Part shown: one piece after another, positions 4,005-26,809 of the stretch
How positions within the stretch are numbered: the stretch's first letter is position 1
Layout: each line of letters opens with the position of its first letter
NCBI RefSeq assembly: GCF_014145395.1
Contig: NZ_JACHTE010000002.1
Coordinates: 62,001-126,000 of the forward strand
Direction: 5' to 3'
Origin: Marilutibacter penaei
GTDB taxonomy: Bacteria > Pseudomonadota > Gammaproteobacteria > Xanthomonadales > Xanthomonadaceae
Length of the DNA: 64,000 nucleotides
The notes under the pieces: model-generated
What the model was told of the DNA's origin: nothing
What the model saw: the letters and a program-made list of their open reading frames with translations, nothing else
Databases searched by the model: none
Made by a program: the position numbers and the translations under genes

Positions 4005-5399
4005 ATGAGTGCGGCCATGCGGAGCCGGAAGAGCCGGACGCTGTTCGCCCTGTGGCTCCTGGAGATGGCGGCCTTGATGCTGGCGGTGTTCCTGGCGGCC
4101 CACCTGCGCTTCCTTGACGACCCCGAGGGCCATGCGCTGTTCTCCGAATGGCTGGGGCTTCGTGCGGGGTTGGTAGGACTGGCGGTGACCGGCGCCATGG
4201 CCGCGTTCGGCCTGTACCAGGTCCACGTCCGTCACAAGTGGGTGGACCTGGTCCTGCGGATGCTGTTGTCGTTCGCGTTCGGCGGTATCGCCCTTCTCGT
4301 GTTGTATTACGTGGTGCCGCTGGTCTACATCGGCCGTGGCGTGCTGGCGCTCGCGTTGACCCTGGGCTTCGTCGTCCTGCTGCTGGGACGCGTCCTGCTG
4401 AGTCGCCTCGTGAGCAGCGACGCCCTGCGACGCCGCGTGCTGGTGCTGGGCGCCGGCCAGAGGGCCGAACTGATCAACCAGCGCCTGCGCCGCAAGAGCG
4501 ACAGGCAGTCCTTCGTCATCGTGGGTTTCCTGCCGTTCCCCGGGCAGGACGTGCTCGTGTCCGAGGGCGTGCTGGAGGTGGATGGGGCGTCGTTGCTGGA
4601 TCGCGTGGACCGGTTGCAGGTCGACGAGATCGTGGTCGCCGCCGATGAGCGCCGCGGCGCGATGCCGATGGACCAGATGCTGGCGTGCGCGCAGCGCGGC
4701 GTCGCCGTCACCGACTTGTCGAGCTTCTTCGAGCGGGAGGCCGGCATCGTCAAGATGCAGGTGGCGGATCCGTCGTGGCTGGTGTTCTCCGGGGGGTTCG
4801 ACCATTCGATGCCGCGTCGCCTGAGCAAGCGCTTCTTCGACCTCGCCAGTGCGCTGGTCCTGCTCGCGATCGCTTGGCCCGCGATGCTGGTGGTGGCGAT
4901 CTGCGTCTGGCTGGAGTCCGGAGCGCCGATCCTCTACCGGCAGACTCGCGTCGGCCAGGGTGGACGGCAATTCGACCTCTTCAAGTTCCGGAGCATGCGC
5001 ACGGACGCCGAGGCCGATGGCGTGGCCCGCTGGGCCAAGGCCGGCGATGACCGGACCACCCGCGTCGGACGTTTCATCCGCCTCACGCGACTCGACGAAC
5101 TGCCGCAGCTGTTCAACATCATCCGCGGCGACATGAGTTTCGTCGGGCCCCGGCCGGAGCGGCCGCAGTTCGTGGACATGCTCGACCAGGAGCTCCGCTA
5201 TTACTCCGTGCGCCACAGCGTCAAGCCCGGCCTGACCGGCTGGGCCCAGTTGCGCTACCCGTATGGGGCGTCGGTCCGCGATGCCGAGGAGAAGCTCAAG
5301 TTCGACCTCTTCTACGTGAAGAACCACGGCCTGCTGTTCGACCTGATGATCCTGCTGCAGACGGTGGAGGTGGTCGTGTTCCAGCGCGGTTCGCGCTGA
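4005..5399 (+). CDS. Polyprenyl-phosphate sugar-1-phosphate transferase (EpsB/WcaJ type)
   Basis: Initiating enzyme of exopolysaccharide assembly: it moves a hexose-1-phosphate from a UDP-sugar onto undecaprenyl phosphate at the inner membrane. The 464-residue protein has about five N-terminal membrane helices, a Rossmann-like CoA-binding-type segment starting at VLVLGAGQRAE (about 145), and from about residue 273 the bacterial sugar transferase domain with KRFFDLA, FKFRSMRTDA, TRLDELPQLFN and GDMSFVGPRPERP. The overall form resembles the family seen in XrtA/PEP-CTERM polysaccharide loci. GGAGGGG at 3991-3997 supports the ATG. It is separated from the other export genes by the NRPS operon. 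The sugar it transfers cannot be read from sequence. Confidence 0.92.
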   Translation: MSAAMRSRKSRTLFALWLLEMAALMLAVFLAAHLRFLDDPEGHALFSEWLGLRAGLVGLAVTGAMAAFGLYQVHVRHKWVDLVLRMLLSFAFGGIALLVLYYVVPLVYIGRGVLALALTLGFVVLLLGRVLLSRLVSSDALRRRVLVLGAGQRAELINQRLRRKSDRQSFVIVGFLPFPGQDVLVSEGVLEVDGASLLDRVDRLQVDEIVVAADERRGAMPMDQMLACAQRGVAVTDLSSFFEREAGIVKMQVADPSWLVFSGGFDHSMPRRLSKRFFDLASALVLLAIAWPAMLVVAICVWLESGAPILYRQTRVGQGGRQFDLFKFRSMRTDAEADGVARWAKAGDDRTTRVGRFIRLTRLDELPQLFNIIRGDMSFVGPRPERPQFVDMLDQELRYYSVRHSVKPGLTGWAQLRYPYGASVRDAEEKLKFDLFYVKNHGLLFDLMILLQTVEVVVFQRGSR

Positions 5400-6063: not shown

Positions 6064-9000
6064 GTGAAGGCGTTGCAGAAGCAGCAAGAGCATTGGCGTG
6101 CACAGGTGGCCGCGGCACCCGCGCGACTCGACCTGCCCCTCGGGCCGGGCCGTGCGGGACGGCCGTTGCGGGCCGTGGTGCCCCTCGCGGCGTCGCATGG
6201 AGCCGCGCTCGAGGCGACGGCCCGTCGTGCGGGCGTTTCGATCGAGGCGGCCTGGCTGGCGCTCTGGGCGACGTTCATGGCCGGCATGGCCGATGCGGAC
6301 GCCGTGCAGGTGGCGCGGATCCAGGCCCGCACTGACGCGTCCATGCCGTTGCAACCGCTCGTGCTGCGCTTCGGCGGGGGCGAAGGCGAGGGCGGGGAGC
6401 CCGTCGGCACCGCTGCACGTGCGCTCGCCGACGCGGACGCACACGCCATGCCGCAGGCGGCGTTCGACGCGTTGTTCCCGGAGCTTCCCGTCTGGCAGTT
6501 GGGGTTCCATTTCGGCGATCCCGACGATCCCGACAGCGCCGCCTGGGTGGCGCGTTGCGATCTCGCCTGCGTGGTGGGTTCCGGCGAAGGAACCCCGGCC
6601 TGCGAGCTGGTCGTATCCGCCGACGCCGACGATGTCGCCATGCCTGCACGGTGGGCCGCGTTGTTCGCGACATGGCTGGAACAGGCGCTCGATACACCGC
6701 AGATGGCCTGGCGTGCGCTCCCGCTCATGGCGCCGGAAGCGGCACAGGCGCTTTGCCGGCGCGGGCACGTCGCACGGGATGTACCCGACTGCACGGTACA
6801 TGCGCTGTTCGAAGCGCAGGTGGACCGCACGCCTGATGCCACCGCGGTGGCAGGCGACACACACGCCCTCACGTATCGCAGCCTTGACGAAGCCGCCAAT
6901 CGCCTGGCCCGGCAGCTGCGGTTGCTCGGGGCCGGCCCCGATGCCCGGGTGGCCGTGTTCCTTGATCGAACCCCCGATCTGCTGGTCGCAGTGCTGGCCA
7001 TCCTGAAAGCCGGCGCCGCTTACGTCCCCCTCGATCCCGGCTATCCGCCCGAGCGCCTTCGCCTGACGCTCGGCGACAGCGCGCCCACGGCCGTGATCAG
7101 CGGTACTGCGATGGCAGAGGGCTGGGCCGGACTGGCGGACGCGGCGAACGGTGTGCCGGTACTGCGCCTCGACGACCCTGCGGCGCCGTGGATCGCGTTG
7201 CCGGCGACGCGGATCGATGCGGGCGAAACCGGCGTGTCACCCGCGCATCTGGCGTACGTGCTGTATACCTCGGGCTCCACCGGCACGCCCAAGGGCGTGG
7301 CGATGCCGCACGCCCCGCTGGTGAACCTGATCCAGTGGCAGACCCGCCAGCCCGGCCACGAGGGTCCGTTGCGCACCCTGCAGTTCGCTGCGCTGGGCTT
7401 CGACGTGGCGTTCCAGGAGATGTTCGCCACGCTGTGCACGGGCGGTGAGCTCCATATGATCGACGCCGACAGCCGCCTCAGCGGCGAACGGCTGCATGCC
7501 TTCGTGCGTGCGCGTCGGATCGAACGGCTGTTCCTGCCGTATTTCGCCCTGCAAATGCTTGCCGAGGCGCATGCCAACGCCGGCGAGGACCCGCAGGGCT
7601 TCGCGCTGCGCGAAGTGGTGACGGCCGGTGAACCCCTGCGCATCGAGCCGCGCATCCGCGCATTCTTCGATGCCTTGCCGGAGTGCCGCCTGCACAACCA
7701 TTACGGCCCCACGGAAAGCCACGTGGTGACGGCCTTCGCGCTGGAAGGCGCGCCCGCGGACTGGCCGTTGCTGCCCAGCATCGGCCGGCCGATCGACAAT
7801 GCACGCGTCTACCTGCTGGACCGGCGAGGCCAGCCCGTGGTGGACGGCATGGTCGGCGAGCTGTACCTGGCGGGACCGGTGCTGGCGCGTGGCTACCTGG
7901 GCCGCGATGAACTCAGTGCGGAACGGTTCCTCGACGATCCCTTCGACAACGACCCGGCGGCCCGCATGTACCGGACCGGCGACCTCGCGCGCTGGCGCGC
8001 GGACGGCGCGCTGGAGTTCCTGGGCCGTCGCGACTTCCAGGTGAAGATCCGGGGCTTCCGGGTCGAGCTGGGTGAGGTGGAGGCCCAGGTGATGGCCTGC
8101 GACGGCGTCCGCGAGGCGGGCGTGACGGTGCGCGAGGACGTGCCCGGATTGAAGCGCCTGGTGGCCTACTTCACGCCGATCGACCCGGAACGACCGGTCG
8201 ACATCGACGCCATGCGCACGCGGCTGGCGAACCGCCTTCCCGAACACATGGTGCCGGCAGCCTATGTGCCCCTGCCAGCCATGCCGCTGTCGCCCAACGG
8301 CAAGCTCGATCGCGGCAAGTTGCCGTCGCCGGGACAGGCGCGCCCGGACTGGATCGGCGAGTTCCACCCGCCCGTGGGGGAGGTCGAATCGCAACTGTGC
8401 GCGCTGTTCTCCGAGGCACTGGGGCTCGAAGGCCTGGGGCGGCACGACAGCTTTTTCACGCTGGGCGGCACGTCGCTGCTCGCCCTGCGCCTCCTGCAGG
8501 CGATACGAAAGGCGGGACTGGGCGAGGTCGCGGTCACCGCGCTGTTCGCCGCGCCCACGCCTGCCGGCGTCGCGCGCGTGCTCGCCGGCGACCCGGCGAC
8601 GCCGGCGCTGCGTACCCGCGCCCGTCGCCGTGGCGACGACGACGTGCCCATTGCCATCATCGCGATGACCGGGCGCTTCCCCGGGGCGAACGACGTGGAG
8701 TCGTTCTGGGAGAACCTCTGCGAGGGCCGGGACAGCATCCGTTTCTTCACGCCGGACGAGCTGGATCCGTCCATCCCCCTGTCGGAGCGCGATGATCCGG
8801 ATTACGTTGCCGCGCGCGGCGTCATCGAGGGCCATGACTGCTTCGATGCCGCGTTCTTCGGCATCAGTCCGCGGGAAGCGGAGTTGATGGACCCCCAGCA
8901 GCGCCTGTTCCTTGAACTCTGCTGGGAGTGCATGGAGCGGGGCGGACATGCGCCGGGCCGCCACGAAGCGTCGGTCGGCGTGTATGCGGGCATGTACAAC

Positions 9001-12000
9001 GCCAGCTATTTCCAGAAGCACGTCAGCGCGCACCCGGACCGGATCGAACGACTGGGCGCGTTCCAGGTGATGCTGGACAACGAGAAGGACTACATCGCCA
9101 CCCGGGTGGCCCACAAGCTCGACCTGGACGGCCCGGCGATCAGCGTGCATACCGCGTGTTCGACCTCGCTGGTGGCGATCGCGCAGGCGGTGGACAGCCT
9201 GCGGGCAGGACGTTGCGACATGGCGCTGGCCGGCGGGGTGTCGATCACCTGCCCGCCGAACAGCGGCTACCGCTACCAGGAGGGGGCGATGCTGTCCCCG
9301 GACGGCCACACCCGCACGTTCGATGCCGATGCCAAGGGCACCGTGTTCGGCGATGGCGCCGCGGTGGTGCTGTTGCGCCGGCTGGACGAAGCGCTGGCGG
9401 ATGGAGACCCGATCCATGCGGTGATCCGCGGGGTGGCGCTGAACAACGACGGGGCGGACAAGGCCAGCTTCACCGCGCCCAGTGCCGCCGCGCAGGCGGC
9501 GGTGGTCGCGATGGCGCACGAGGATGCCGGGGTCGACCCCCGCAGCATCGGTTACGTGGAAGCCCACGGCACGGCGACCCCGCTGGGCGACCCCATCGAG
9601 GTGGAGGGCCTCACCCGGGCCTTCCGGCGGGGCACGCGCGACACCGGCTTCTGCCGCATCGGTTCGCTGAAGAGCAACATGGGACATCTGCTGATCGCGG
9701 CGGGTGCGGCCGGTGTGATCAAGACCGCCCTGTCGCTGGAGCACGAGTGCATCCCGCCGACCCTCCATTACGTCCAGCCCAATCCCGCGATCGACTTCGC
9801 GTCATCCCCCTTCGTGGTCAACGCGTCGGCGACGCCATGGCCGCGCGAAGGAACACCGCGCCGCGCCGGCGTGAGTTCCTTCGGGGTCGGGGGGACCAAC
9901 GCGCACGTGGTCCTGGAGGAAGCGCCCGGACGCGCTGCCAGCGTTCGGCAGGAAGGCCCGGCCGTGCTGCCGGTCTCCGCGCGCACGCCCGCGGCCCTCG
10001 CCGAAGTGGCGCGCCGCCTCGCCGGCCACCTCGAGCGCCACCCTGACACCGTACTTGAAGACGTGGCGTGGACCTTGTCAAAGGGCCGCAAGGCGTTTGC
10101 CCATCGCGCCAGCGTGGTGGCGGACGACGTGCCGGCGGCCATCGCGGCGCTCGGGGATGCTTCGTTCCTCGGGCGGATCGCGCGGGGACGGCCTGCGCGC
10201 AGCCAACAGGTGGTGCTGATGTTCCCCGGGCAGGGTGCGACGTATCCGCGCATGGGGGCGGGCCTGTATGCCGCCGACCGCACCTGCCGGGACGCGCTGG
10301 ACGCCTGTGCGTCCGCGCTGGGGGATGCGTTCGGCTTCGACCTGCTGGAGCGTCTCCACAGCGAAGACCCCGATGCGTTGATCCCGACCTCCATCATGCA
10401 GCCGGCCACGTTTGCGCTCGAGTACGCGCTGGCGAAGTGGTGGCAGGGCCGCGGACTCGAGCCGGTGGCGATGATCGGCCACAGCGTGGGCGAGTTCGTC
10501 GCGGCAACCCTGGCCGGCGTGTTCTCGCTGGAAGCGGGCATCCGCCTGGTGGCCGAACGTGGCCGCCTGATGCAGGCGCAGCCACCGGGCGGCATGCTGT
10601 CGGTGCGCGCGGACTGGGGCACGCTGGCGTCGCGCTTGCCCGCCGGAGTGTCGATGGCCGCCGAAAACGCCCCCGCGGCCTGCGTGGTGGCCGGTCCGTC
10701 GGATGCGCTGTCGGCGTTCCAGGACGTTCTGGAAGGCGAGGGGGTCGCATGCCGCATGCTGCACACCTCGCATGCCTTCCACTCCGCGATGATGGTCCCC
10801 GCGGTGGAGCCGTTCCGCGCCGCCGTCGAAGCGGCGGGCCCGCGTGCGCCGGAAGCACGGATCGTCTCCACCACGACGGGCGACTGGCTCGATCCCGAAC
10901 GGGCACGCGATCCCGCGTACTGGGCCTCGCACCTCCGGGAGCCGGTGCGGTTCTCGAAGGCGCTCCTCACCGCGCTGGAAATGCCCGGCCTCGCATTGCT
11001 TGAAGCCGGGCCGCGCGGCAACCTCTCCAGCCTGGCGCGCCTGCATCCCCAGGTCGGCAAGGCCCACGTACCGGTGATCGCGAGCCTGGCGGACAGTCCG
11101 GAGCGCGAGACCTCGCTGCTGCACCAGGCATTCGGTGACCTGTGGAGCTGCGGAATCGCGTTGGAACCGTCGACGCTGGACACGCGCACGGCGCGCCGCC
11201 GTGTGTGCCTGCCGACCTACCCCTTCGAACGCCAGCGCTACTGGCTCGATGCACCCCCTGCACAACGGAGCGTGCTGCCCCACCCGGCGGCCGCGATCTC
11301 CCGGGAGAACCCCATGCCGCACCTTGCACCGGCCACCGATGCACCGGCCGCCCCCACGCCCGTCGCCGATCGCATTCCCGGTCTCGTCGCGCGCCTGCGC
11401 GACGTCATCGAAGACGTGTCGGGCATCGACATGGCGGATGCGGAAGCGGATGCGAACTTCATCGAGCTCGGTCTCGACAGCCTGGTGTTGACCCAGGTCG
11501 CACTGCAGGTGCAGAAGTCGTTCGGAACCCGGGTGACGTTCCGCCAGTTGATGAGCGATGCGTCCAGTCTCTCGGCGCTGGCCGGTCATCTGGACGCGCA
11601 ACTGCCGCCCGAGCCGGTGACTGCGCCGGTGGCAGCGCCAGCCGCGCCCGTGGCGCCGGCCGCCATTGCCACGGTGGCAACCGCGCCGGCCCAGGCGTCT
11701 TTGGCGCCCACCGTTCCTGCGTTCCAGGCGGGGGCGGGAGGAGATGCCCTCCAGCAGCTCATCGCCCAGCAGATGCAGTTGATGTCGCAGCAGCTGGCGC
11801 TGCTGGGCGGGCAGGGTTCGATGGGCGCCATGGCGGCCCCGACGATCGCGGTCCCGGCGCCGCCGTCCGGCATGGCTGCGGTGTCGGCCCCGGCGGTGGT
11901 CGCGCCCGCCGCACCGAACGAGGGCGAGGCAGCGGTGGCCATCGGGGCCTCCGACATCGACGACGAGGCCGCCCTTGCCCATACCCGCTACGACCTGAAA

Positions 12001-13533
12001 AAGGCCTTCGGTGCGATCGCACGCATCGACAGCACGGGCCAGCTGGTCCTGGAAGATTCGCAACGAACGAGCCTCTCCCGATTCATCGACCGCTACCAGG
12101 CGAGGACCGCGAAGTCGAAGGCCTACACCCGGAAGCATCGCGCCCACATGGCCGACCCGAGGGTCGTCAACGGGTTCCGCCCGCTGACCAAGGAGATCTG
12201 CTACCAGATCGTCATCGAGCGCTCCCATGGCGCACGCATGTGGGACCTGGACGGCAACGAATACGTCGATGCACTGAACGGCTTCGGCATGAGCCTGTTC
12301 GGATGGCAGCCCGACTTCATCATGGACGCGGTGCGCACACAGCTGGACCGGGGCATCGACATCGGGCCCCAGCATCCGCTGGCAGGCGAGGTGGCCGGCA
12401 TGATCTGCGAGCTGACCGGCCATGACCGCGCGGCCCTGTGCAACACCGGCTCCGAAGCCGTGCTGGGCGCGCTGCGCATCGCCCGCACGGTGACCGGTCG
12501 GGAGACGCTGGTCGTGTTCAACGGTTCCTACCACGGCATCATCGATGAAGTGATCGTGCGCGGGACGCGCAAGCTGAAGTCGGTGCCTGCCGCGCCCGGT
12601 ATCCTGCGCAACACCGCCGAGCACGTGCTGGTGCTCGACTACGGGACGCCCGAGGCCATGCAGGTGATCCGCGAGCGCGCGCACGAGATCGCGGCGGTGC
12701 TGGTCGAGCCGGTCCAGAGCCGCCGCCCCGATTTCCGGCCGGTGGAGTTCCTCAGGGAACTGCGACAGGTGACCGCCGAGGCAGGCGCCGCGCTGATCTT
12801 CGACGAAGTCATCACCGGGTTCCGTGCGCATCCCGGTGGCACCCAGGCCATGTTCGGGGTCAAGGCGGATATCGCGACGTACGGCAAGGTGGTGGGCGGT
12901 GGCCAGCCGATCGGCGCCATCGCCGGGAAGCGCGAGTTCATGGATGCACTCGACGGCGGCGCCTGGGACTTCGGCGACGATTCGGTGCCGACGGTCGGGG
13001 TGACCTACTTCGCCGGCACGTTCGTCCGCCATCCCATGGCGTTGGCGGCCGCGCATGCGGTGCTGGTGGAAATGAAGCGGCAGGGCCCGGCGCTGCAGGA
13101 AGACCTCAACGCACGCATGGACGCGATGGCCGACGAGATCAACCGGTTCTGCCGTGCACGGGGCGCACCGGTCGAGGTCAGGCACTTCGCCTCGGTCTGG
13201 AAGACGTTCTTCCTGGAGGACCATCCGTTGCAGGACCTGCTGTTCGCCATGATGCGGACCCGGGGCGTGCACATCCTCGACAATTTCCCGTGTTTCCTCA
13301 CCACGGCCCACGGTGAGGCGGAGCGGCGCGCGATCGTCGATGCCTTCAAGGCGTCCATCGTGGAACTGCAGGAGGCCGGCTTCCTTCCCGGTACGGTGAC
13401 GTCCGGCGTGCCGGCCATGGATGCGGCGGCGCCGCCCGTCCCGGGTGCCCGCATCGGGCGTGATCCGGAAGGCCGACCTGCCTGGTACCTCGCCGACCCG
13501 GACCGTCCCGACCAGTACGTGAAGGTGGGGTAA
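6064..13533 (+). CDS. Hybrid NRPS-PKS: (half C)-A-PCP-KS-AT-ACP-aminotransferase
   Basis: First assembly-line protein, 2489 residues. In order: a C-terminal half condensation domain without HHxxxDG (1-230); an adenylation domain (240-757; YTSGSTG near 400, LSPNGKLDR at its end); a PCP (Ser804); a ketosynthase (860-1285; Cys1032 in TACSTS, His1168, His1208); a malonyl-type acyltransferase (1383-1665; GHSVGEF with Ser1474, HAFHS); an ACP (Ser1806); an Ala/Gln/Pro-rich linker; and a class III PLP aminotransferase (2030-2425; Lys2275) of the kind seen in mycosubtilin/iturin synthases. There is no ketoreductase. Expected chemistry: an amino acid is loaded, extended with malonate, and the beta-keto group is converted to a beta-amine. 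GTG 6064 is the first start codon after an in-frame stop and has GGAG 8 bases upstream. Active-site residues are intact in every complete domain. Confidence 0.93.
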   Translation: MKALQKQQEHWRAQVAAAPARLDLPLGPGRAGRPLRAVVPLAASHGAALEATARRAGVSIEAAWLALWATFMAGMADADAVQVARIQARTDASMPLQPLVLRFGGGEGEGGEPVGTAARALADADAHAMPQAAFDALFPELPVWQLGFHFGDPDDPDSAAWVARCDLACVVGSGEGTPACELVVSADADDVAMPARWAALFATWLEQALDTPQMAWRALPLMAPEAAQALCRRGHVARDVPDCTVHALFEAQVDRTPDATAVAGDTHALTYRSLDEAANRLARQLRLLGAGPDARVAVFLDRTPDLLVAVLAILKAGAAYVPLDPGYPPERLRLTLGDSAPTAVISGTAMAEGWAGLADAANGVPVLRLDDPAAPWIALPATRIDAGETGVSPAHLAYVLYTSGSTGTPKGVAMPHAPLVNLIQWQTRQPGHEGPLRTLQFAALGFDVAFQEMFATLCTGGELHMIDADSRLSGERLHAFVRARRIERLFLPYFALQMLAEAHANAGEDPQGFALREVVTAGEPLRIEPRIRAFFDALPECRLHNHYGPTESHVVTAFALEGAPADWPLLPSIGRPIDNARVYLLDRRGQPVVDGMVGELYLAGPVLARGYLGRDELSAERFLDDPFDNDPAARMYRTGDLARWRADGALEFLGRRDFQVKIRGFRVELGEVEAQVMACDGVREAGVTVREDVPGLKRLVAYFTPIDPERPVDIDAMRTRLANRLPEHMVPAAYVPLPAMPLSPNGKLDRGKLPSPGQARPDWIGEFHPPVGEVESQLCALFSEALGLEGLGRHDSFFTLGGTSLLALRLLQAIRKAGLGEVAVTALFAAPTPAGVARVLAGDPATPALRTRARRRGDDDVPIAIIAMTGRFPGANDVESFWENLCEGRDSIRFFTPDELDPSIPLSERDDPDYVAARGVIEGHDCFDAAFFGISPREAELMDPQQRLFLELCWECMERGGHAPGRHEASVGVYAGMYNASYFQKHVSAHPDRIERLGAFQVMLDNEKDYIATRVAHKLDLDGPAISVHTACSTSLVAIAQAVDSLRAGRCDMALAGGVSITCPPNSGYRYQEGAMLSPDGHTRTFDADAKGTVFGDGAAVVLLRRLDEALADGDPIHAVIRGVALNNDGADKASFTAPSAAAQAAVVAMAHEDAGVDPRSIGYVEAHGTATPLGDPIEVEGLTRAFRRGTRDTGFCRIGSLKSNMGHLLIAAGAAGVIKTALSLEHECIPPTLHYVQPNPAIDFASSPFVVNASATPWPREGTPRRAGVSSFGVGGTNAHVVLEEAPGRAASVRQEGPAVLPVSARTPAALAEVARRLAGHLERHPDTVLEDVAWTLSKGRKAFAHRASVVADDVPAAIAALGDASFLGRIARGRPARSQQVVLMFPGQGATYPRMGAGLYAADRTCRDALDACASALGDAFGFDLLERLHSEDPDALIPTSIMQPATFALEYALAKWWQGRGLEPVAMIGHSVGEFVAATLAGVFSLEAGIRLVAERGRLMQAQPPGGMLSVRADWGTLASRLPAGVSMAAENAPAACVVAGPSDALSAFQDVLEGEGVACRMLHTSHAFHSAMMVPAVEPFRAAVEAAGPRAPEARIVSTTTGDWLDPERARDPAYWASHLREPVRFSKALLTALEMPGLALLEAGPRGNLSSLARLHPQVGKAHVPVIASLADSPERETSLLHQAFGDLWSCGIALEPSTLDTRTARRRVCLPTYPFERQRYWLDAPPAQRSVLPHPAAAISRENPMPHLAPATDAPAAPTPVADRIPGLVARLRDVIEDVSGIDMADAEADANFIELGLDSLVLTQVALQVQKSFGTRVTFRQLMSDASSLSALAGHLDAQLPPEPVTAPVAAPAAPVAPAAIATVATAPAQASLAPTVPAFQAGAGGDALQQLIAQQMQLMSQQLALLGGQGSMGAMAAPTIAVPAPPSGMAAVSAPAVVAPAAPNEGEAAVAIGASDIDDEAALAHTRYDLKKAFGAIARIDSTGQLVLEDSQRTSLSRFIDRYQARTAKSKAYTRKHRAHMADPRVVNGFRPLTKEICYQIVIERSHGARMWDLDGNEYVDALNGFGMSLFGWQPDFIMDAVRTQLDRGIDIGPQHPLAGEVAGMICELTGHDRAALCNTGSEAVLGALRIARTVTGRETLVVFNGSYHGIIDEVIVRGTRKLKSVPAAPGILRNTAEHVLVLDYGTPEAMQVIRERAHEIAAVLVEPVQSRRPDFRPVEFLRELRQVTAEAGAALIFDEVITGFRAHPGGTQAMFGVKADIATYGKVVGGGQPIGAIAGKREFMDALDGGAWDFGDDSVPTVGVTYFAGTFVRHPMALAAAHAVLVEMKRQGPALQEDLNARMDAMADEINRFCRARGAPVEVRHFASVWKTFFLEDHPLQDLLFAMMRTRGVHILDNFPCFLTTAHGEAERRAIVDAFKASIVELQEAGFLPGTVTSGVPAMDAAAPPVPGARIGRDPEGRPAWYLADPDRPDQYVKVG

Positions 13534-13539
13534 GGGGGC

Positions 13540-16500
13540 ATGGCGACATCCGCGATACGACAGGACGGTGCGCGACGTACGGTTGACTACGATCCCTTCG
13601 CCGGTGGCGTACTGGAACGGGTGGTGCCGACCACCGAGCCGCAACGCGAGATCTGGCTGGCGGACCGTCTGGGGCGCGAGGCTTCGCTGGCCTACAACGA
13701 GTCGGTGTCGCTGCTCCTCGAAGGCCCGCTGGAGCGGGAGGCGCTGTGCCGTGCGGTCCAGCAGTTGCAGGCCCGGCATGACGCCTTGCGGGCGAACTTC
13801 GGTCCCGATGGCGAAACGCTGTGCGTGGGCGAGGCGAACGCCTCGATGCCCGTGCAGGTGCACGACTTTGGGCTGCTGGAGGGCACGCAACGCGACGCGG
13901 CCGTGGAAGCCCGTCTGCGTGCGAGCGTCGAAACGCCCTTCGAGCTCCTCGATGGCACCCTGTTCAGGGCCGAGTTGCTGTGCCTCTCGGAGCGCCGCCA
14001 CCGGCTGCTGCTGAGCGCACACCACATCGTCTGCGACGGCTGGTCGTGGTGGGTCATGGTCCGCGAGCTGGGCGCCCTGTATGCGCGCGAGTGCGGGCTG
14101 GACCCGGGCTGGTTGCCCGAGCCGGATTCGTTCGCCGATCATGCCTGCGCACTGGCGGCCGGGCGGTCGGCCGAACAGGAGGCGGACGAGGCCTACTGGC
14201 GCACGCGCTTCCAGACGCTGCCCGAGCCGCTCGACCTGCCACTCGACCGGCCCAGGCCTGCACGGCGCACCTCGAGCGCGCGCCGGCACGACCACGTGGT
14301 CGACGCCTCCCTCGTCAGTGCCATCCGGCAGTTCGGCGCGCGCCGGGGCTGCAGCCTGTTCGGCACCCTCCTGGCCGGCTTTGCAGGCCTGATGGCCCGA
14401 TTGACCGCCCAGGACGACATCGTGGTCGGCATACCGGCCGCGGGCCAGTCGGTGGAAGGGCAGGACCAGCTCGTGGGCCATTGCGTGCACGTGTTGCCGT
14501 TGCGCTTCCGGGCGGATCCTGATGCCCCGTTCGAGACGGTACTGGCGCATGCGCAGGAGGTCCTGCTGGATGCGCTCGACCACCCCCGGCTGACCTTCGG
14601 CAGCCTCCTCAAGCACCTGAGGGTCGAGCGTGACCCGGCGCGACTGCCGCTGGTCAACGTGATGTTCAACATCGACCAGGCGCTCGACCAGGAAAGCAAC
14701 CGCTTCCCGGGGCTGGACCTCGCGTTCGAGACCAACCCGCGCGCCCACGAAACCTTCGAGCTGTCGGTCAACGCCGTCCAGGTCGACGGTGCGCTGCGCC
14801 TGGAGTGCCAATACAACACCGACCTGTTCGACCACGCCACCATCGAACGCTGGATGCGGGCCTACGAAACCCTGCTGCGGGCCGCCATCGAGCAGCCGAC
14901 CCGGCCCTTCGGCGAGCTGGGCCTCGTGGATGCAGGGGGATGGCAGGCGCTGCAGGCATTGCAGCCCGCGCCGGTGCAGTACGATCCCACGCAGCCGGCG
15001 CACGCGTTCTTCGAAGCATGCTGCGATGCCGCGCCGGACCGCATCGCCGCGTGCCACGGCGATGCACGCCTCACGTATGCGCAGCTGGACGCGCGCGCGA
15101 ACCGCATTGCGCACCTGCTGCGCGAGAACGGCGTGCACGCGGGCAACCTGGTGGGCCTCGGGCTGCAGCGCGGCACCGACATGCTCGCGACAGTCCTGGG
15201 CATCTGGAAGGCAGGCGCCGGCTACGTGCCGCTCGACCCCGCCTTCCCCGTGGATCGCCTGACCTACATGGCGGGCGATGCGGGCCTCGCGGCCCTGGTG
15301 ACGCACGAAGCCTCGGCCGGCCTGTTCGACCTGCGCGGCCGGCCGGTGCTGGTGCTGGACCAGCTGGAGCCTACGCTCCAGGCCATGCCGACCGCGCGGC
15401 CGCGACTCGAGCCCGGCAGCCTGCAACCGGACTCCGTCGCCTACGTCATCTATACCTCCGGTTCGACGGGGCGGCCGAAAGGCGTCCAGGTACCGCACCG
15501 GGCCGTTGCCAACCTGGTCGTCGCCATGCAGCGCGAGCCCGGGCTTGTCGCCGACGACCGCATGCTGGCACTGACCACGCTGTCCTTCGACATCGCAGTC
15601 CTGGAGCTGCTGCTGCCGCTGAGCGTCGGCGCACGCGTCGTCATCGCCGGCCGCGAGGTCGCGGTCGATGGCGCAGCGATCGCGGCGTTGATCGAGTCCG
15701 CCGGCGTGACCTGCATGCAGGGCACGCCCGCTACCTTTCGGCTCCTGCTCGCGGCGGGTTGGGCGGGGCGGCCGGGGCTGAAGGCATTGTGCTGCGGCGA
15801 ACCGCTGCCGGTGGACCTGGCGCGCGACCTGCTGCCCCGGTGCGACTCCCTGTGGAACATGTACGGGCCCACGGAGACCACCGTCTACTCCACCGGGACG
15901 CGCGTCGAGCCCGATGCCGCGGGTCACCTCGATATCCACATCGGCACGCCGATCGCCAACACCCGCGTCTGGATCCTGGATGCACGGGGGCAAGCCTGCC
16001 CGTTGGGCGTGCCTGGCGAAATCTGCATCGCCGGCGAAGGCGTGACCCTGGGATACCTCGGACGCCCCGAGCTGACCGCGGATCGCTTCATCGAAGCCAT
16101 CTCGCTGCCGGTGCGGCCGGATGGACGGCCGGAGCAGGTCTACCGCACCGGTGACCGTGGACGCTGGCGACAGGATGGCCGGATCGAGCACATGGGCCGG
16201 CTGGACCACCAGGTGAAGGTGCGCGGTTACCGCATCGAGCTGGGGGAGATCGAAAGCGTCCTCGCCGCGCACCCCGCGGTGGCGCGCTGCGTGGTGATCG
16301 TGCGCGAGGACCGCAAGGACGATGCGCGGCTGGTGGCCTACGTGGTGCCGCGGGAAGACGCACGGCCGGACGAGGGGGCGTTGCTGGCGCACCTGCGCCA
16401 GGCAGTGCCCGAGTACATGCTGCCGCAGCATTTCGTCATGCTCGATGGCCTGCCCTTGTTGCCGAACGGCAAGCTGGACCGTGGGCAGTTGCCGGCCCCG

Positions 16501-19500
16501 GTGACCGGCGGGCATGCCAAACTGCACGAGGCACGTCCCCCGGCGACCGCCGTCGAAGCGCACCTCGCCGCCACCATGGCGGACGTCCTGGGCGTCGAGG
16601 CCATCGGTGTGGACGATGACTTCTTCGCCAGCGGTGGGCATTCGCTGCTCGCCGCCCAGCTGGTGGCCCGGTTGAATCGCGAACTCGGCGCGAACCTGCA
16701 CTTGAGGACCTTGTTCGACGCGCCGACCGTGGCTCGGCTCGCAATGCATGTCGAATCCACCGGGGATGACGGCCTGGCGGCACGACCGCCCATCCAACGG
16801 CTGCCGGAGGATGCCCGCGTTCCCCTTTCGCCGATGCAGGAGCGGCTCTGGGTACTCGAGCAGATGCAGCCCGGGCGGGTGACCTACAACACGCCGTCGG
16901 CCCACCGGCTGCGCGGGCCACTCGATCACGCCGCCTTCGAGCGCGCGTTCCAGGCCATGGTGTGTCGACAGGCCACGCTCCGCACGGTGGTCGGCGAGGA
17001 CGAGCAGGGCACGTTCCAGCGCGTTCGCGATGACATCGACGCGGCGCTCCCCGTCCAGGACCTGCGCAGCCTCCCCGAGGGCGACCGGGAAACCGAACTG
17101 CGTGCCGCAATGGAACGGATGATCGCCGAGCCCTTCGACCTCGAAGCCGGCCCGCTGTTCCGTGCACGCCTGTTCCGGCTGGACGACGAAGACCACGTGC
17201 TGTTCTTCATGACGCACCACATCATCTGGGATGGCTGGTCTTTCGACGTTTTCTATACCGAGATGGCCACGCTTTACCCCGCGTTCCTGCGCGGCGAACG
17301 CTCGCCCTTGCCCGCACTGGATGTTGATTACAGGGACTTCACCGCGTGGTATCGCGCATGGCTGGATGGCGATGAACTCAAGCGCCAGCTCGACTTCTGG
17401 TCGGACCACCTTGCCGGTCATGCGGCACCCCTTCAGCTGCCGCTGGACACGCCCCGGCCATCCGAGGCCAGCGGCGCGGGCGGTACCGAATGGATGGCCA
17501 TCGGGCGCGACACCACCGACCGCGCACGTGCGCTGGCGACGCGGAACGACGCGACCCTGTTCATGGCCCTGCTGACGGCGTACTACCTGTTGCTGCACCG
17601 CTTGAGCGGCCAGGACGACCTGGTCGTCGGCCTGCCGGTCCGCAATCGCGAAAGCGAGGCGCTGGAGCCCATCATGGGCTTCTTCGTCAATATGCTGCCG
17701 ACCCGCGTGCAGGTCGATCCGGATGCGTCGTTCCTGGACCTGCTGCGCCAGGTGCGGCGTGCGGTACTCGACGCCTTCTCCCATCCCGACGTGCCATTCG
17801 ACCGCTTGGTCCGGGCGCTGGAGGCCCCGCGCGATCCCAGCATCGCCCCCGTGTACCAGGCCAGTTTCTCGTTCCAGGACGTGCGGGCCCGCCGTACCCA
17901 TTGGGGCGACCTGGAGCACGAACACCTGCTGGTGTTCCAGAAAGCCAGCTCCGGCGACCTGGGCTTGTGGTTCCTCGAGCATGGCGAGGGCCTGTCCGGG
18001 GTGATGACCTACAACACGGACGTCCTCGGTGCCGACAGCGCACGGTGCTTCAGCCAGCGCTACTCCCGGTTGCTGGAGGCGGTGCTCGAGCATCCCGACC
18101 GGCCATTGGCTGCGCTCGACATTCGCTGCGACGCCGATATCGACGTGCCGCGACAGGCCAATGCAACGCGCCGGGCCCTGCCGTCCCCGGCCACGCTCGG
18201 GTCCCTGTTGGATTCGTCGCTGGCCGTGCATGGCGCGCGTGTCGCACTCGACCACGCGGGCCAATCCTTGACGCATTCCGCCCTGCACGAACGCAGCCTG
18301 CGCATCGCCGCGTGCATGCGGGAGGAGGGCGTGCGTGCCGGGGACCGGGTCGGCATCTGCATGGCGCGCGGACCGGACATGCTGGCCAGCATGCTGGGGG
18401 CGTTGCGCATCGGCGCCGCATACGTGCCCATGGATCCCGACTACCCGACCGACCGCCTGCAGTTCATGGTGGACGACGCTGGCCTGCGGCTTGTCCTGGG
18501 CCAGCGCGGATCGTGCGACGACCTCAAGCTCGGCGCGGCACGCCGGATCGACGTGGATGCATCGGGGGCACGGCTGGCGGCGATCGCCCCGCTCGCTCCC
18601 GGGACGGACGAGGCCTCACCGGAATCCGTCGCGTACGTCATCTATACGTCCGGTTCGACCGGTAAGCCGAAAGGCGTGCAGGTGCCGCACCGCGCCGTCG
18701 TGAACTTCCTGCTTTCGATGCAGCGGGTACCCGGCCTGGACAGCGATGACGTGCTGGTGGCGGTGACCACCACCTCCTTCGACATCGCCGTGCTTGAGCT
18801 GTTCCTGCCCCTGCTGGCGGGTGCCCGCATCGTGCTGGCCGATCGCGACACGGTGCTGGACGACGTCGAGCTGGGCCAGCTGATCGCGGCCAGTGGCGCG
18901 ACCGTCATGCAGGCCACGCCCTCGACCTGGCGGATGCTGGTCGAAACCGGCTGGCAGGCGCCTGTGGGTTTCCGCGCGTTGTGCGGGGGCGAGCCGCTGG
19001 CGCCGGACCTGGCCGAGTCGCTGGTCGGAATGTGCGCCGAGGTCTGGAACATGTACGGTCCCACCGAAACCACGGTGTGGTCGACGTGTTGCCGGGTGGA
19101 AGCGGATGCACCCATCCATATCGGCAGGCCCATCGACAACACCACCGTGCATGTGCTCGACCCATCGGGCCGGCCCTGCGCCGTGGGGTGTTCCGGCGAG
19201 ATCTGCATCGGTGGCGCAGGCGTCTCCCTGGGCTACCTCGACCGCCCCGCGCTGACAGCGGAACGCTTCGTGCCGGATACGTTCGCGGACGGGGATGGCA
19301 TCCAGGGGCCGGGCCTGCTGTATCGCACGGGCGACCGCGGCCGTTGGCGGCACGACGGCACGCTCGAACACCAGGGGCGTTTCGACCATCAGGTCAAGTT
19401 GCGTGGCCACCGCATCGAACTGGGGGAGATCGAGGCCGCGTTGCAGGCGCACCCTGCGATCGTACGTTCCGTGGTGACGACGCACGAAGCGCGGCCCGGT

Positions 19501-20157
19501 GATGTGCGGCTGGTGGCGTACGTGGTGCCGCAGGCCGATGCGCCCGCAACGTCGGCGCTGCAGGGGCATCTTGCCGCGCGTCTGCCCGCCTACATGCTGC
19601 CGCAACGGATCGTCGTGCTGGACACGCTGCCCTTGCTCCCGAACGGGAAGATCGACCGCAATGCCCTGCCGCTGCCGGGCGGAGTGCTGACGATCGATGC
19701 TCCCGACGGCCCTGACATCCCTGACATCCCTGACGTCCCTGACGCACTGAGGGAGGATCCCCCACGCCCCTCCGGAACGGGTATCCCGGCATCCGGTCTG
19801 GCGTCCGATACACCGCCGCGAATCCGTTATCTGGTGCAGGTATGGGAGGAACTGCTCGAGGTGCGCGTACTCCCCACCGATAACTTCTTCGATCTGGGGG
19901 GGCACTCGATGCTGGCGGTGAAGATGGCCCATCGCGTCTCGCGCGATACCGGCGTACGGCTCAAGCTGATGAAACTGACACAATTGAGCCTGGCGCAGGT
20001 GGCCGAGGCCCTGCCCGATGCCACCGACGTGTATGGCGTGGCGGCCTCCGGCAGTGACGCGCACGGTCCGGCTCCTGGTGCGCCGCCTTCGCCCTGGCAC
20101 CGTCGCGCACGGAGACGCCTGGCGCGCTGGATCGGCGGCGAAGGCGAGTCGACGTGA
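13540..20157 (+). CDS. Nonribosomal peptide synthetase: C-A-PCP-C-A-PCP
   Basis: Second assembly-line protein, 2205 residues. C1 (20-450) has HHIVCDG at 161-167 and an N-terminal TEPQREIW block resembling condensation domains that follow aminotransferase modules. A2 spans about 488-986, with PCP Ser1035. C2 spans about 1097-1530, with its HHIIWDG motif beginning at 1226. A3 spans about 1553-2047, with PCP Ser2123. The chain ends about 80 residues after the last PCP in a basic tail, with no thioesterase, reductase or terminal condensation domain. It starts 6 bases after the preceding stop behind AAGGGGG and overlaps the next gene as GTGA, so the genes are translationally coupled. By hand alignment A2 and A3 have glycine-like specificity residues. 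It should add two residues to the beta-amino acyl chain made upstream. Confidence 0.93.
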   Translation: MATSAIRQDGARRTVDYDPFAGGVLERVVPTTEPQREIWLADRLGREASLAYNESVSLLLEGPLEREALCRAVQQLQARHDALRANFGPDGETLCVGEANASMPVQVHDFGLLEGTQRDAAVEARLRASVETPFELLDGTLFRAELLCLSERRHRLLLSAHHIVCDGWSWWVMVRELGALYARECGLDPGWLPEPDSFADHACALAAGRSAEQEADEAYWRTRFQTLPEPLDLPLDRPRPARRTSSARRHDHVVDASLVSAIRQFGARRGCSLFGTLLAGFAGLMARLTAQDDIVVGIPAAGQSVEGQDQLVGHCVHVLPLRFRADPDAPFETVLAHAQEVLLDALDHPRLTFGSLLKHLRVERDPARLPLVNVMFNIDQALDQESNRFPGLDLAFETNPRAHETFELSVNAVQVDGALRLECQYNTDLFDHATIERWMRAYETLLRAAIEQPTRPFGELGLVDAGGWQALQALQPAPVQYDPTQPAHAFFEACCDAAPDRIAACHGDARLTYAQLDARANRIAHLLRENGVHAGNLVGLGLQRGTDMLATVLGIWKAGAGYVPLDPAFPVDRLTYMAGDAGLAALVTHEASAGLFDLRGRPVLVLDQLEPTLQAMPTARPRLEPGSLQPDSVAYVIYTSGSTGRPKGVQVPHRAVANLVVAMQREPGLVADDRMLALTTLSFDIAVLELLLPLSVGARVVIAGREVAVDGAAIAALIESAGVTCMQGTPATFRLLLAAGWAGRPGLKALCCGEPLPVDLARDLLPRCDSLWNMYGPTETTVYSTGTRVEPDAAGHLDIHIGTPIANTRVWILDARGQACPLGVPGEICIAGEGVTLGYLGRPELTADRFIEAISLPVRPDGRPEQVYRTGDRGRWRQDGRIEHMGRLDHQVKVRGYRIELGEIESVLAAHPAVARCVVIVREDRKDDARLVAYVVPREDARPDEGALLAHLRQAVPEYMLPQHFVMLDGLPLLPNGKLDRGQLPAPVTGGHAKLHEARPPATAVEAHLAATMADVLGVEAIGVDDDFFASGGHSLLAAQLVARLNRELGANLHLRTLFDAPTVARLAMHVESTGDDGLAARPPIQRLPEDARVPLSPMQERLWVLEQMQPGRVTYNTPSAHRLRGPLDHAAFERAFQAMVCRQATLRTVVGEDEQGTFQRVRDDIDAALPVQDLRSLPEGDRETELRAAMERMIAEPFDLEAGPLFRARLFRLDDEDHVLFFMTHHIIWDGWSFDVFYTEMATLYPAFLRGERSPLPALDVDYRDFTAWYRAWLDGDELKRQLDFWSDHLAGHAAPLQLPLDTPRPSEASGAGGTEWMAIGRDTTDRARALATRNDATLFMALLTAYYLLLHRLSGQDDLVVGLPVRNRESEALEPIMGFFVNMLPTRVQVDPDASFLDLLRQVRRAVLDAFSHPDVPFDRLVRALEAPRDPSIAPVYQASFSFQDVRARRTHWGDLEHEHLLVFQKASSGDLGLWFLEHGEGLSGVMTYNTDVLGADSARCFSQRYSRLLEAVLEHPDRPLAALDIRCDADIDVPRQANATRRALPSPATLGSLLDSSLAVHGARVALDHAGQSLTHSALHERSLRIAACMREEGVRAGDRVGICMARGPDMLASMLGALRIGAAYVPMDPDYPTDRLQFMVDDAGLRLVLGQRGSCDDLKLGAARRIDVDASGARLAAIAPLAPGTDEASPESVAYVIYTSGSTGKPKGVQVPHRAVVNFLLSMQRVPGLDSDDVLVAVTTTSFDIAVLELFLPLLAGARIVLADRDTVLDDVELGQLIAASGATVMQATPSTWRMLVETGWQAPVGFRALCGGEPLAPDLAESLVGMCAEVWNMYGPTETTVWSTCCRVEADAPIHIGRPIDNTTVHVLDPSGRPCAVGCSGEICIGGAGVSLGYLDRPALTAERFVPDTFADGDGIQGPGLLYRTGDRGRWRHDGTLEHQGRFDHQVKLRGHRIELGEIEAALQAHPAIVRSVVTTHEARPGDVRLVAYVVPQADAPATSALQGHLAARLPAYMLPQRIVVLDTLPLLPNGKIDRNALPLPGGVLTIDAPDGPDIPDIPDVPDALREDPPRPSGTGIPASGLASDTPPRIRYLVQVWEELLEVRVLPTDNFFDLGGHSMLAVKMAHRVSRDTGVRLKLMKLTQLSLAQVAEALPDATDVYGVAASGSDAHGPAPGAPPSPWHRRARRRLARWIGGEGEST
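19711..19743 (+). repeat. 9-bp tandem repeat in NRPS linker
   Basis: CCTGACATC is repeated about 3.7 times, the third copy reading CCTGACGTC. It encodes an in-frame Pro-Asp-Ile/Val run between A3 and the last PCP, so changes in copy number would keep the reading frame and only alter linker length. Confidence 0.85.
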
Positions 20158-20969
20158 CCGAGCCGTGCTACTTCGGTCCCCGGGGACGGGAGCTCTTCGG
20201 TCTTCTGCACCATGGCGCGACAGCTGACGGAGACAGCCCGCAGGTAACGCGTCCGGCCTGGCTGGTGTGTCCACCGCTGTTGCAGGATGCGATCCGCAGC
20301 CACCGTGCCCTTTGGACGCTGTCGCGGTCGCTGGCGGGCGCGGGCCATGACGTGATGCATTTCGACTGGTACGGGACCGGCGATTCGTCCGGCGACCTCG
20401 AGGACCTCACGCTGGCCGGCATGTCCCGCGACCTGGATGCGGGCATGGCCGCATTGGGGCGGGGTGCGTCGGCGCGCCCCCGGGTACTGGCACTCCGCAG
20501 TGCCGCGTTGCCCGTGCTCGCCTGGGTACGGCAGCGGGGCATGCCCGTCGACCTCGTGTTGTGGCAGCCCTGTCTGGACGGCGCCGGACAGGTCGCGGAC
20601 TGGCGCGCCCAACAGGTGGACCAGTTGACCGTGGCGGGGCGTTATCCCTATGGCGCGCCGGCCGGTGCCGACGATGACCTGATGGGATTCAGGGTGGCGC
20701 GGGCGTGGCTGGACAGTCTTGCTGCGCTCGATTTCCGTGCCTGGACGTTGCCGGAGGGAAGTCGCCTGTTGGTGGCTGCCTGGCAACGGGATGTGGTGCT
20801 CGATGCCTGGCTCGAGCGCCAGCGCGGGGCGGGCATCGAGGTCGATGTCCTGGTGTTCGAGGACGACGAAGCACCGCCCGTGGATGCCCCCCGCCTGTTC
20901 GAAGCGCAACTGTTCCCCCGGCAGAGCGTGGCCGCGCTGTCGAGTCGCATGGCCGGGCGGGCCGCATGA
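20154..20969 (+). CDS. Exosortase A system-associated hydrolase 2-like alpha/beta hydrolase
   Basis: A 271-residue alpha/beta-fold protein resembling ortholog 2 of the two hydrolases that accompany XrtA exopolysaccharide loci. Visible features are the early strand ending in PPLLQDAIRSHR, the DWYGTGDSSGD turn and a degenerate nucleophile elbow: where GxSxG is expected there is ALRSAAL, with Arg at the nucleophile position. Catalysis by a classical Ser triad is therefore doubtful, and a partner or carrier-binding role is possible. The GTG start overlaps the NRPS stop as GTGA, and the end overlaps the next gene as ATGA. Its place directly after an NRPS lacking a thioesterase suggests a part in product release or transfer. 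Confidence 0.75.
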   Translation: MTEPCYFGPRGRELFGLLHHGATADGDSPQVTRPAWLVCPPLLQDAIRSHRALWTLSRSLAGAGHDVMHFDWYGTGDSSGDLEDLTLAGMSRDLDAGMAALGRGASARPRVLALRSAALPVLAWVRQRGMPVDLVLWQPCLDGAGQVADWRAQQVDQLTVAGRYPYGAPAGADDDLMGFRVARAWLDSLAALDFRAWTLPEGSRLLVAAWQRDVVLDAWLERQRGAGIEVDVLVFEDDEAPPVDAPRLFEAQLFPRQSVAALSSRMAGRAA

Positions 20970-21877
20970 ACGCGCAATTGGCGGTCGAGGACGTTATCGC
21001 GGGTCCGGATGCCTGCGATGGATCCCGCCGAAGCGACAATGCCCTTGGGGAAAGCGCGTACCGCTTCGGCCCGGGACTCGTGGGCGTGTTGCACCGGCCC
21101 TGCCACGAGGACGGGCACGTGCAGGACGTCGCGGTGATCCTGCTGAATGCGGGGCTGGTCCGTCGCATCGGACCTTACCGGCAGTACGTATTGCTCGCGC
21201 GCCTGCTGGCCCGCGCCGGGTTCACCGTGCTGCGTTACGACCAGTCCGGTCTGGGCGACAGTGCCTCGGCTTCCCGCGAAGCGGGCGACAGGCGACTCCG
21301 CGAGGTCCGCGCGGCGATGACGCTCGTGGGTGCGGAGACCGGGCACATGCGCTTCGTACTCGGGGGACTGTGTTCCGGCGCAGACGATGCCTTCCATATC
21401 GCCGTGCAGGACTCCCGGGTCGTGGGCACGTTGCTGCTCGATGGCCCGGGGTACAAGACAGCGGGCTTCTGGTGGCGGCACCTCCTGCCCCGCGTGTTCA
21501 GCCCAAGGCGCTGGCGCGCGTTGCTCGGCCATGTCGGCAAGTTGCGTACCCATGAGCCGGGCCTGCTCGACTATCGGGACTTCCCGCCCCAGGCGGATGC
21601 GCGCCTGCAACTCCAATCGCTGGTGGAGCGGGGCGTGCGCATGCTGTTCCTGTACACCTCGGGCAGCTATTACTACGTCAACCATCGCAGCCAGCTGGCC
21701 GCCGCCTTGGGCGACGCGGCGCGCGCGCCCGCCGTCACGGTGGAGTTCTGGCGCGACTGCGACCACACGTTCTACCTGCAGCAGGACCGGACCCGGATGT
21801 TCGCCTACACGCTGGGGTGGATGCAGGATGCCTTTGGGACGCGCAAGGGCCGCCCCGGGCCAACGCCCATCCCATGA
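20966..21877 (+). CDS. Exosortase A system-associated hydrolase 1-like, Cys-nucleophile hydrolase
   Basis: A 303-residue alpha/beta hydrolase of the XrtA ortholog 1 type. The nucleophile elbow GGLCSG places Cys136 where Ser is usual, and CDHTF supplies His267 next to Asp266. Early motifs VGVLHRP and YRQYVLLARLLA match the family. A cysteine elbow is often seen in thioester-transferring members of the fold, so this is the best candidate for off-loading the peptide from the last PCP. The ATG start overlaps the previous stop, and the reading frame extends further upstream only inside the previous gene. It overlaps the flippase gene by ATGA. Assignment to the family is by eye; the acceptor is unknown. 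Confidence 0.78.
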   Translation: MNAQLAVEDVIAGPDACDGSRRSDNALGESAYRFGPGLVGVLHRPCHEDGHVQDVAVILLNAGLVRRIGPYRQYVLLARLLARAGFTVLRYDQSGLGDSASASREAGDRRLREVRAAMTLVGAETGHMRFVLGGLCSGADDAFHIAVQDSRVVGTLLLDGPGYKTAGFWWRHLLPRVFSPRRWRALLGHVGKLRTHEPGLLDYRDFPPQADARLQLQSLVERGVRMLFLYTSGSYYYVNHRSQLAAALGDAARAPAVTVEFWRDCDHTFYLQQDRTRMFAYTLGWMQDAFGTRKGRPGPTPIP

Positions 21878-23373
21878 ACGGCGATGCCAAGGGCGTAGCG
21901 ACCCACTACCGCCGCTATGCCACCGGGAACGCCCTGACGCTGCTGGCGGGCCTCGTTTCGTTCCCGCTGTTGACCCGCCTGCTCGACAACACCCAGTACG
22001 GGATGTTCGGATACTACGGCGCGTGGATCCTGATGGCCGTGGCGGTCGGCAAGTTCGGCGCGCAGCATGCCATCCTGCGTTTCTATCCCCACGACCGGGA
22101 TCCCCAGCGCCTCAGGGCCTTCGCGACGAACCTGTTCTACGCGCCGCTCGGCCTCGCCTTCGTGCTGTGGGTCGTCGTCGTGGCCGGAATGCTGCTGGTC
22201 GACGCGGTCAGCGGGCAACGGCAAAGTGCGATGTTCTGGCTGGTGGTCGCGATGGCGCCGCTGGCGATATTCGCCAGCCTGGTCGATACCGTGCAGAAGG
22301 TCACCGAGCGCTCCCGGCTGGTCATGTACCTGCGGATCGGCGGCCGCTGGCTCGAACTGCTGCTGATGCTGGGTGCCGTGCTGCTGGTGCAGGCGAGTGC
22401 AGTGGCGGCCTATTCCGGGAAGCTTGCGACCTGCATCCTCCTCGCCGTGGCGTATGTCGTGTGGATGCGTCGCCACCTGCAGTTCTCGCGGCAGGCGCTC
22501 GACCTGTCGGAGACGCGCGCGGCCCTGATGTTCGGCATGCCGATGGCCCTGAGCGAGGTGATTTCGGTCACGCTGGTGTCGCTCGACCGATGGATGATCA
22601 AGGACATCACCGGCGACTTCGCGCTGGTCGGCGTATACAGCATCGGTTCGTCGCTGGCGATGCAGGTCAGCCTGTTCATGAACGCTTCGGTGTTCGAGGC
22701 GTTCCTGCCTACCGCCAACCGCATCTACAGCCTGGAAGGCGACGCAGCCCTTCGCGAACTGAAGGCGCGCGTCCTGATGCCGATGACCTATGCGGCCGTC
22801 GGCATCGCTGTCCTGCTCGGGAGTTTCGGGAGCGACCTCATCCTGGTCGCCAGCGGCGCGGACAAGGTGGCATCCGGTCCGGTATTCGCGCTGCTCGCGG
22901 TGGTGTGCGTACTCCAGCCGGTGCTGCTGCTGGCCGGTTACGGCCTGTTGCTCGAAAAGAGGTCGAGCACAGTGCTGCTGCTGGTGTTCGCCAGCCTGCT
23001 GGTGAACGGTGTCTTGAACTGGCTGTGGATACCGAGGTTCGGCGTCATGGGAGCCGCGTGGGCGACGGTGTTCAGTTCGATGGCACTGGGCATCGCCCAT
23101 TGCGCGGTCGTGAAGCGGTCGCTGTTGAAGCTGCCGGACCTGCGGACCGTCGGGACCGCCCTCCTGGCGGCCACGGCGGTAGTGCTCTTCGATCGCTGGC
23201 TGATCCAGCGCGGTGTGCCCGCGGGCTGGATCCGCTTCCTGTTCGGCGGCGGAGCGGCCGGGCTGATCTACCTGGCGTGCGTGTTGTGCGTCGACGCTCG
23301 TTTGAGAGTTCTGGTGAAGGGCGCGGCCAAGTCGGCCTTTGGATTCAATAGTTCGTCACGCGCGCAGGCTTGA
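21874..23373 (+). CDS. Wzx-like polysaccharide flippase (MOP superfamily)
   Basis: Inner-membrane protein of 499 residues with about 12-14 hydrophobic helices, starting with a YRRYATGNALTLL segment and charged loops (YPHDRDPQR) typical of Wzx/RfbX transporters that flip undecaprenyl-linked repeat units to the periplasm. ATG 21874 overlaps the hydrolase stop, so it is translationally coupled to the NRPS-hydrolase operon rather than placed with the Wzy/Wzz/Wza genes. That placement links the peptide pathway to export of a lipid-linked saccharide, or of the peptide itself. The MOP family assignment is good; the substrate is inferred. Confidence 0.85.
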   Translation: MNGDAKGVATHYRRYATGNALTLLAGLVSFPLLTRLLDNTQYGMFGYYGAWILMAVAVGKFGAQHAILRFYPHDRDPQRLRAFATNLFYAPLGLAFVLWVVVVAGMLLVDAVSGQRQSAMFWLVVAMAPLAIFASLVDTVQKVTERSRLVMYLRIGGRWLELLLMLGAVLLVQASAVAAYSGKLATCILLAVAYVVWMRRHLQFSRQALDLSETRAALMFGMPMALSEVISVTLVSLDRWMIKDITGDFALVGVYSIGSSLAMQVSLFMNASVFEAFLPTANRIYSLEGDAALRELKARVLMPMTYAAVGIAVLLGSFGSDLILVASGADKVASGPVFALLAVVCVLQPVLLLAGYGLLLEKRSSTVLLLVFASLLVNGVLNWLWIPRFGVMGAAWATVFSSMALGIAHCAVVKRSLLKLPDLRTVGTALLAATAVVLFDRWLIQRGVPAGWIRFLFGGGAAGLIYLACVLCVDARLRVLVKGAAKSAFGFNSSSRAQA

Positions 23374-26641: not shown

Positions 26642-26699
26642 GCGGGTGACTCCGGATTCAGGGGGATGCCGCGGTCGGGGGATGCGGCGGATCCAATTG

Positions 26700-26716: not shown

Positions 26717-26733
26717 GCTTCTGCACATTGGGG

Positions 26734-26744: not shown

Positions 26745-26809
26745 CAAATGCACATGCCTGAATGACATTCCCCCTTGTTCATGTGAAGAGTCATTCATTG
26801 TTCATTCAT

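Follow-up and report, generated by a model that had tools for sequence, protein, structure and literature searches.

What does a peptide-polyketide assembly line do within an exopolysaccharide (EPS) locus? This question is raised by a string of five intact open reading frames (ORFs), all on the + strand, in the 64,000-nucleotide stretch of DNA analyzed here (the window). NRPS1, NRPS2, h2, h1, and wzx follow one another with gaps of 6, −4, −4, and −4 bases, respectively, when the starts of h1 and wzx are set to ATGA overlaps in place of the early GTG starts given by the ORF caller (20705 and 21817). The five overlapping or nearly touching genes of the preliminary description were thus found intact, with the coordinates and spacing claimed for them. 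The string and its surroundings are as follows.

4005..5399, +, EpsB-like polyprenyl glycosylphosphotransferase, which starts the EPS repeat unit (TIGR03013, 546 bits; cut-off, 393)
6064..13533, +, NRPS1 (Pfam, motifs, hhalign, A-domain code)
13540..20157, +, NRPS2 (Pfam, A-domain codes)
20154..20969, +, h2, an alpha/beta-hydrolase-fold pseudo-enzyme (TIGR03101, 55 bits; alignment, structure model)
20966..21877, +, h1, an alpha/beta-hydrolase with Cys136 and His267 (TIGR03100, 77 bits; alignment, structure model, fold)
21874..23373, +, Wzx-like flippase (PF01943, 71 bits)
23411..31394, −, three beta-helix paralogues, homologues of which recur in related EPS loci
32776..40584, −, EPS glycosyltransferases, two polysaccharide deacetylases, and a Wzy/O-antigen ligase-like polymerase
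40541..45042, −, EPS secretion proteins: outer-membrane protein, tyrosine autokinase, chain-length determinant (TIGR03007), and export protein (TIGR03027)
44915..47222, −, TviC-like epimerase and TviB-like UDP-sugar dehydrogenase, below the equivalog cut-offs

The assembly line is flanked by the EpsB-like transferase gene on one side and, on the other, by an EPS cluster of 25 kb that is encoded on the opposite strand. An initiating transferase, Wzx, Wzy, a chain-length determinant, a kinase, and an export protein were all present, as in a Wzx/Wzy-dependent EPS system; the TIGR03007 and TIGR03027 matches both exceeded their cut-offs. The flippase, whose gene overlaps h1 by 4 bases, was the sole PF01943 match in a search of the whole genome. 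The TviB- and TviC-like enzymes possibly supply an acetamido-uronic acid.

The beta-helix genes stand in tandem; one product carries FG-GAP repeats and one has an MG2-like end, and they are possibly polysaccharide lyases or binding proteins. A TcdB_toxin_midN match in one of them was set aside because it falls within the FG-GAP repeats. The EPS cluster also contains a gene (31391-32029, −) for a hexapeptide acyltransferase that resembles serine acetyltransferase/EpsC, with a score under the cut-off.

The assembly line and the hydrolase pair

Pfam analysis gave the architecture A-T-KS-AT-T-class III aminotransferase for NRPS1, preceded by a degenerate condensation (C) domain, and C-A-T-C-A-T for NRPS2. 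The N-terminal ~240 residues of NRPS1 aligned to the second half of a C domain (hhalign probability, 98.8%), and the HHxxxDG motif was missing from this remnant. The A, T, KS, AT, aminotransferase, and C domains of an NRPS-PKS-aminotransferase hybrid were intact, with the catalytic motifs that were looked for: ACSTSL in KS, GHSVG/HAFH in AT, YGKVVGGG in the aminotransferase, the carrier motifs, and both HHxxxDG motifs of NRPS2. No terminal thioesterase or reductase was detected in NRPS2 with Pfam, and the only match to the PF00975 thioesterase in the genome (20.6 bits) fell under the cut-off of 26.4.

The A-domain code of NRPS1, DVQFVAHVV, is Pro-like, and the first code in other lines is Val-, Thr-, or Ser-like; that of Lysobacter concretionis Ko07 (L072), for example, is Val-like. 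NRPS2 carries DILQLCMVY and DILQLGMVW. The latter conforms to DILQLG(M/L/V)VW, a later code common to lines from different phyla, which we tentatively take to be Gly-like on an uncalibrated assignment. Extension of a Pro or Val starter by one malonate, followed by transamination, would yield a beta,gamma-diamino acyl unit. The product of the line is most likely a short aminoacyl/beta-amino peptide.

In the alignment of h1, a Cys occupied the nucleophile elbow in every member, accompanied by His267. The structure model (pLDDT 86) placed C136 between a strand (130-135) and a helix (137-148), and fold comparison gave the fold of esterases and lipases. On the other hand, h2 has Arg115 where the nucleophile would be, and its model (pLDDT 91) placed R115 at the junction of strand 110-114 and helix 115-128. 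The role of a thioesterase was therefore rejected for h2, because Arg stands at the nucleophile position in every plausible h2; the Cys rows in the count of h2 nucleophiles are matches to h1, not to h2.

In eight loci from several lineages (L033, L038, L153, L198, L200, L201, L203, and L204), h2 forms the C-terminal domain of a line protein, and the fusion point is the usual position of a thioesterase. This fusion is the strongest sign that h2-h1 act on carrier-bound products. The notion of h2-h1 as a plain stand-in for the missing thioesterase is weakened by three genomes of one genus, g45 (G105, G129, and G246), which have both a PF00975 match inside NRPS2 and a separate h2-h1 pair. A Cys nucleophile such as that of h1 could serve either for hydrolysis or for transfer.

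Conservation of the line with EPS genes

A census of 247 sampled genomes of the Lysobacter family, in which the aminotransferase line was scored at >530 bits, detected the line in 45 genomes and h1 in 58, one copy each. Forty-three of the 45 genomes with the line also have h1 (Fisher p about 1e-32, phylogeny ignored), and the two lie within about 12 kb of each other in 39 of these 43; in G022, h2-h1 (L165) are about 48 kb away from the line. In each of the 15 genomes that have h1 but not the aminotransferase line, another line (NRPS or NRPS-PKS) or an A-T protein is encoded immediately upstream of h2-h1. In the preliminary description the line was placed in the slot of the acyl-CoA ligase and carrier protein; the occupants of this slot were found to range from an A-T protein alone (L161) to a full line. 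An EpsB homologue (E below 1e-100) was present in 81 genomes, including 57 of the 58 with h1, and was within 30 kb of h1 in 48 of the 51 genomes that have both on one contig. EpsB of G013 is about 690 kb from h1.

Near EpsB, a stand-alone ligase-like protein was found in 13 of 14 inspected EpsB genomes without h1. Three of these ligases scored about 350-360 bits on TIGR03098 (cut-off, 592), compared with 713 and 746 for canonical loci. L222 is an EpsB and Wzx locus with neither line nor ligase, and the line therefore looks optional. The other genes after h1 in relatives encode sugar enzymes, namely GINT1_N proteins (L153:2203-3945, −; L040:16978-19608; L197:16483-18192; L163:16265-17803) and one GT2. 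In front of the GINT1_N domain is a conserved N-terminal stretch that matched no Pfam family, and no such protein is encoded in the operon of the window. L036 (G139) is rearranged, with h2-h1 upstream of NRPS1 and beside another NRPS fragment.

More widely, relatives of the line were found in Lysobacter, Rhodanobacter, Pseudoxanthomonas, Betaproteobacteria, Bacteroidota, Planctomycetota, Rhizobiales, and others, and the census of lines also reached those of Bacillus, Paenibacillus, and cyanobacteria. The h2-h1 pair accompanies the line in the Lysobacter group, several Betaproteobacteria, and Planctomycetota. In Rhodanobacter, the line lies within an EPS locus without h2-h1; deacetylase and polymerase genes are downstream of it in L071, and directly before it (3386-4306) is a gene for a Cupin_8/JmjC-like protein, a possible hydroxylase. 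The Bacteroidota lines that were read end in a PF00975 thioesterase, some with glycosyltransferases or a flippase nearby. In Xenophilus, the line and h2-h1 lie among housekeeping genes outside any EPS locus, and neither PF02397 nor PF02563 was detected on that contig. Roughly half of the genomes with a line at least 50% identical have Bac_transf or Poly_export within about 40 kb, and no such linkage was seen for the lines of Bacillus, Paenibacillus, Streptomyces, and Pseudoalteromonas.

The gene order recurs in many genera and is thus far from chance, and the unit of line, hydrolases, and flippase that had been proposed from the window is conserved together with the EPS locus. As for the possibility, raised at the same time, that most lines occur without the hydrolases, most lines within the family have them, whereas some outside it do not. 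There is good support for a coupling between the line and the EPS locus. Its pairing with sugar-coat genes across many relatives suggests that the sugar coat may carry a peptide decoration.

A proposed role for the peptide and its alternatives

On balance, we consider it somewhat probable that the line is a decoration module of a Wzx/Wzy-type EPS locus, in which h2-h1 move the chain to a lipid-linked saccharide before flipping. The line would load an amino acid (Pro-like code), extend it with malonate, aminate the beta-keto group, and then add one or two further residues, one of them possibly Gly. The finished acyl chain would remain on the last carrier domain, at which the pseudo-hydrolase h2 may dock or which it may present. 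The Cys enzyme h1 would take the chain as a thioester and hand it over to the lipid-linked saccharide, where a deacetylated amino sugar may be the acceptor, and the flippase of the same string would move the decorated unit across the membrane. The basis of this scheme was observed directly: the gene content and order, active-site motifs, co-occurrence, h2 fusions, and Cys/Arg conservation. From these we infer the substrates, the transfer reaction, the acceptor, and the order of the steps, as well as the covalent attachment of the peptide to sugar.

The decoration reading is weakened because some lines end in an ordinary thioesterase, the Xenophilus h2-h1 lines stand outside EPS loci, the Rhodanobacter lines in EPS loci lack h2-h1, NRPS2 thioesterase matches occur beside h2-h1 in G105, G129, and G246, EpsB is distant in G013, and a Cys nucleophile also suits hydrolysis. 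Some of these observations also favor a free, secreted small peptide, with h2-h1 as release or editing enzymes and a cluster that settled in the EPS locus, either because such a locus acquires foreign genes or because the peptide is exported along with the biofilm. Xenophilus h2-h1 lines alone among housekeeping genes, the three g45 genomes, and the ordinary thioesterases at the ends of related Bacteroidota lines are all consistent with this explanation. However, no peptide exporter was recognized among the five genes or the neighbors examined, and the only Wzx detected in the genome belongs to the same gene string. Since the line is moreover tied to EpsB in many genera and XrtA polysaccharide loci harbor distant relatives of h2-h1, we regard a free peptide as rather unlikely.

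The evidence from the locus, with the flippase and the initiating transferase flanking the line, would also fit a peptide that serves as a primer, a terminal cap, or a modification of the lipid carrier, or that ends up on a protein or an outer-membrane partner, rather than on every repeat unit. This is improbable in our view, given that a lipid starter domain is absent and the code of the starter A domain points to an amino acid. It seems more improbable still that h1 is only a proofreader like a type II thioesterase and that release falls to a different enzyme, encoded at some other place in the genome. The NRPS2 thioesterase matches besides h2-h1 in the three g45 genomes would agree with such a role, but the genome of the window has no PF00975 match above the cut-off, and in several lineages a fused h2 occupies the place of the thioesterase.

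If the decoration reading is true, bacterial matrix polysaccharides bear peptides, made on an assembly line, that would escape ordinary sugar analysis, and a role that can be tested is gained for hydrolases 1 and 2 of exosortase loci, which so far lack an explanation. More tentatively, there may be a class of EPS that carry non-ribosomal beta-amino peptides, with XrtA-related hydrolases as carrier-to-glycan acyltransferases; the ordinary XrtA ligase with its hydrolases would then be a one-residue version of this chemistry. We hold this to be possible rather than probable. Through the h2-NRPS fusions and through L222, where the locus has no line, the question of decoration is directly testable.

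Comparison with known systems

No description of such a peptide-line/EPS system was found in the open-access literature searched. The EPS loci with XrtA resemble the window in that EpsB (TIGR03013), TIGR03007, and TIGR03027 are over the cut-offs and that hydrolases 1 and 2 have the same Cys and Arg pattern (canonical loci L208-L212); distant h2-h1 relatives sit in these loci. In contrast to them, the window carries an NRPS-PKS line in the ligase slot, where the NRPS A domains beside the hydrolases scored below the TIGR03098 cut-off for a stand-alone acyl-CoA ligase. Its hydrolases are far below the cut-offs (h2, 55 bits versus 203 for TIGR03101; h1, 77 bits versus 168 for TIGR03100), and the control locus L208 gave 303 bits in the XrtA hydrolase test. 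The ten canonical (XrtA) rows of the h1 tree formed one fully supported group of their own; three further rows labelled XrtA-type fell outside it, which makes this label too wide. The exosortase PF09721 was not found in the genome of the window or in 16 of the 17 other family genomes in the exosortase set, G022 having a weak match, whereas all five control genomes with canonical-type hydrolases had it. An exosortase-coupled reading was therefore rejected, and the term XrtA-type that had been given to the hydrolases is loose; judged by their scores, h2 and h1 are relatives, not members, of the XrtA hydrolase families.

The lines for mycosubtilin/iturin and those of the microcystin McyE type are NRPS-PKS hybrids for beta-amino acids that include a class III aminotransferase, and the line of the window shares their order of KS-AT-T-aminotransferase followed by C domains. 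It differs from them in its amino-acid rather than fatty starter, in its EPS-locus setting, and in having a hydrolase pair instead of a thioesterase of its own. The Dlt system D-alanylates teichoic acids, using one amino acid and an MBOAT transferase. What the window has in common with Dlt is the principle of acyl activation by an A domain together with a carrier, with an envelope polymer as the destination, and the A domains of the window score on DltA models; unlike Dlt, the window has a multimodular line and alpha/beta hydrolases.
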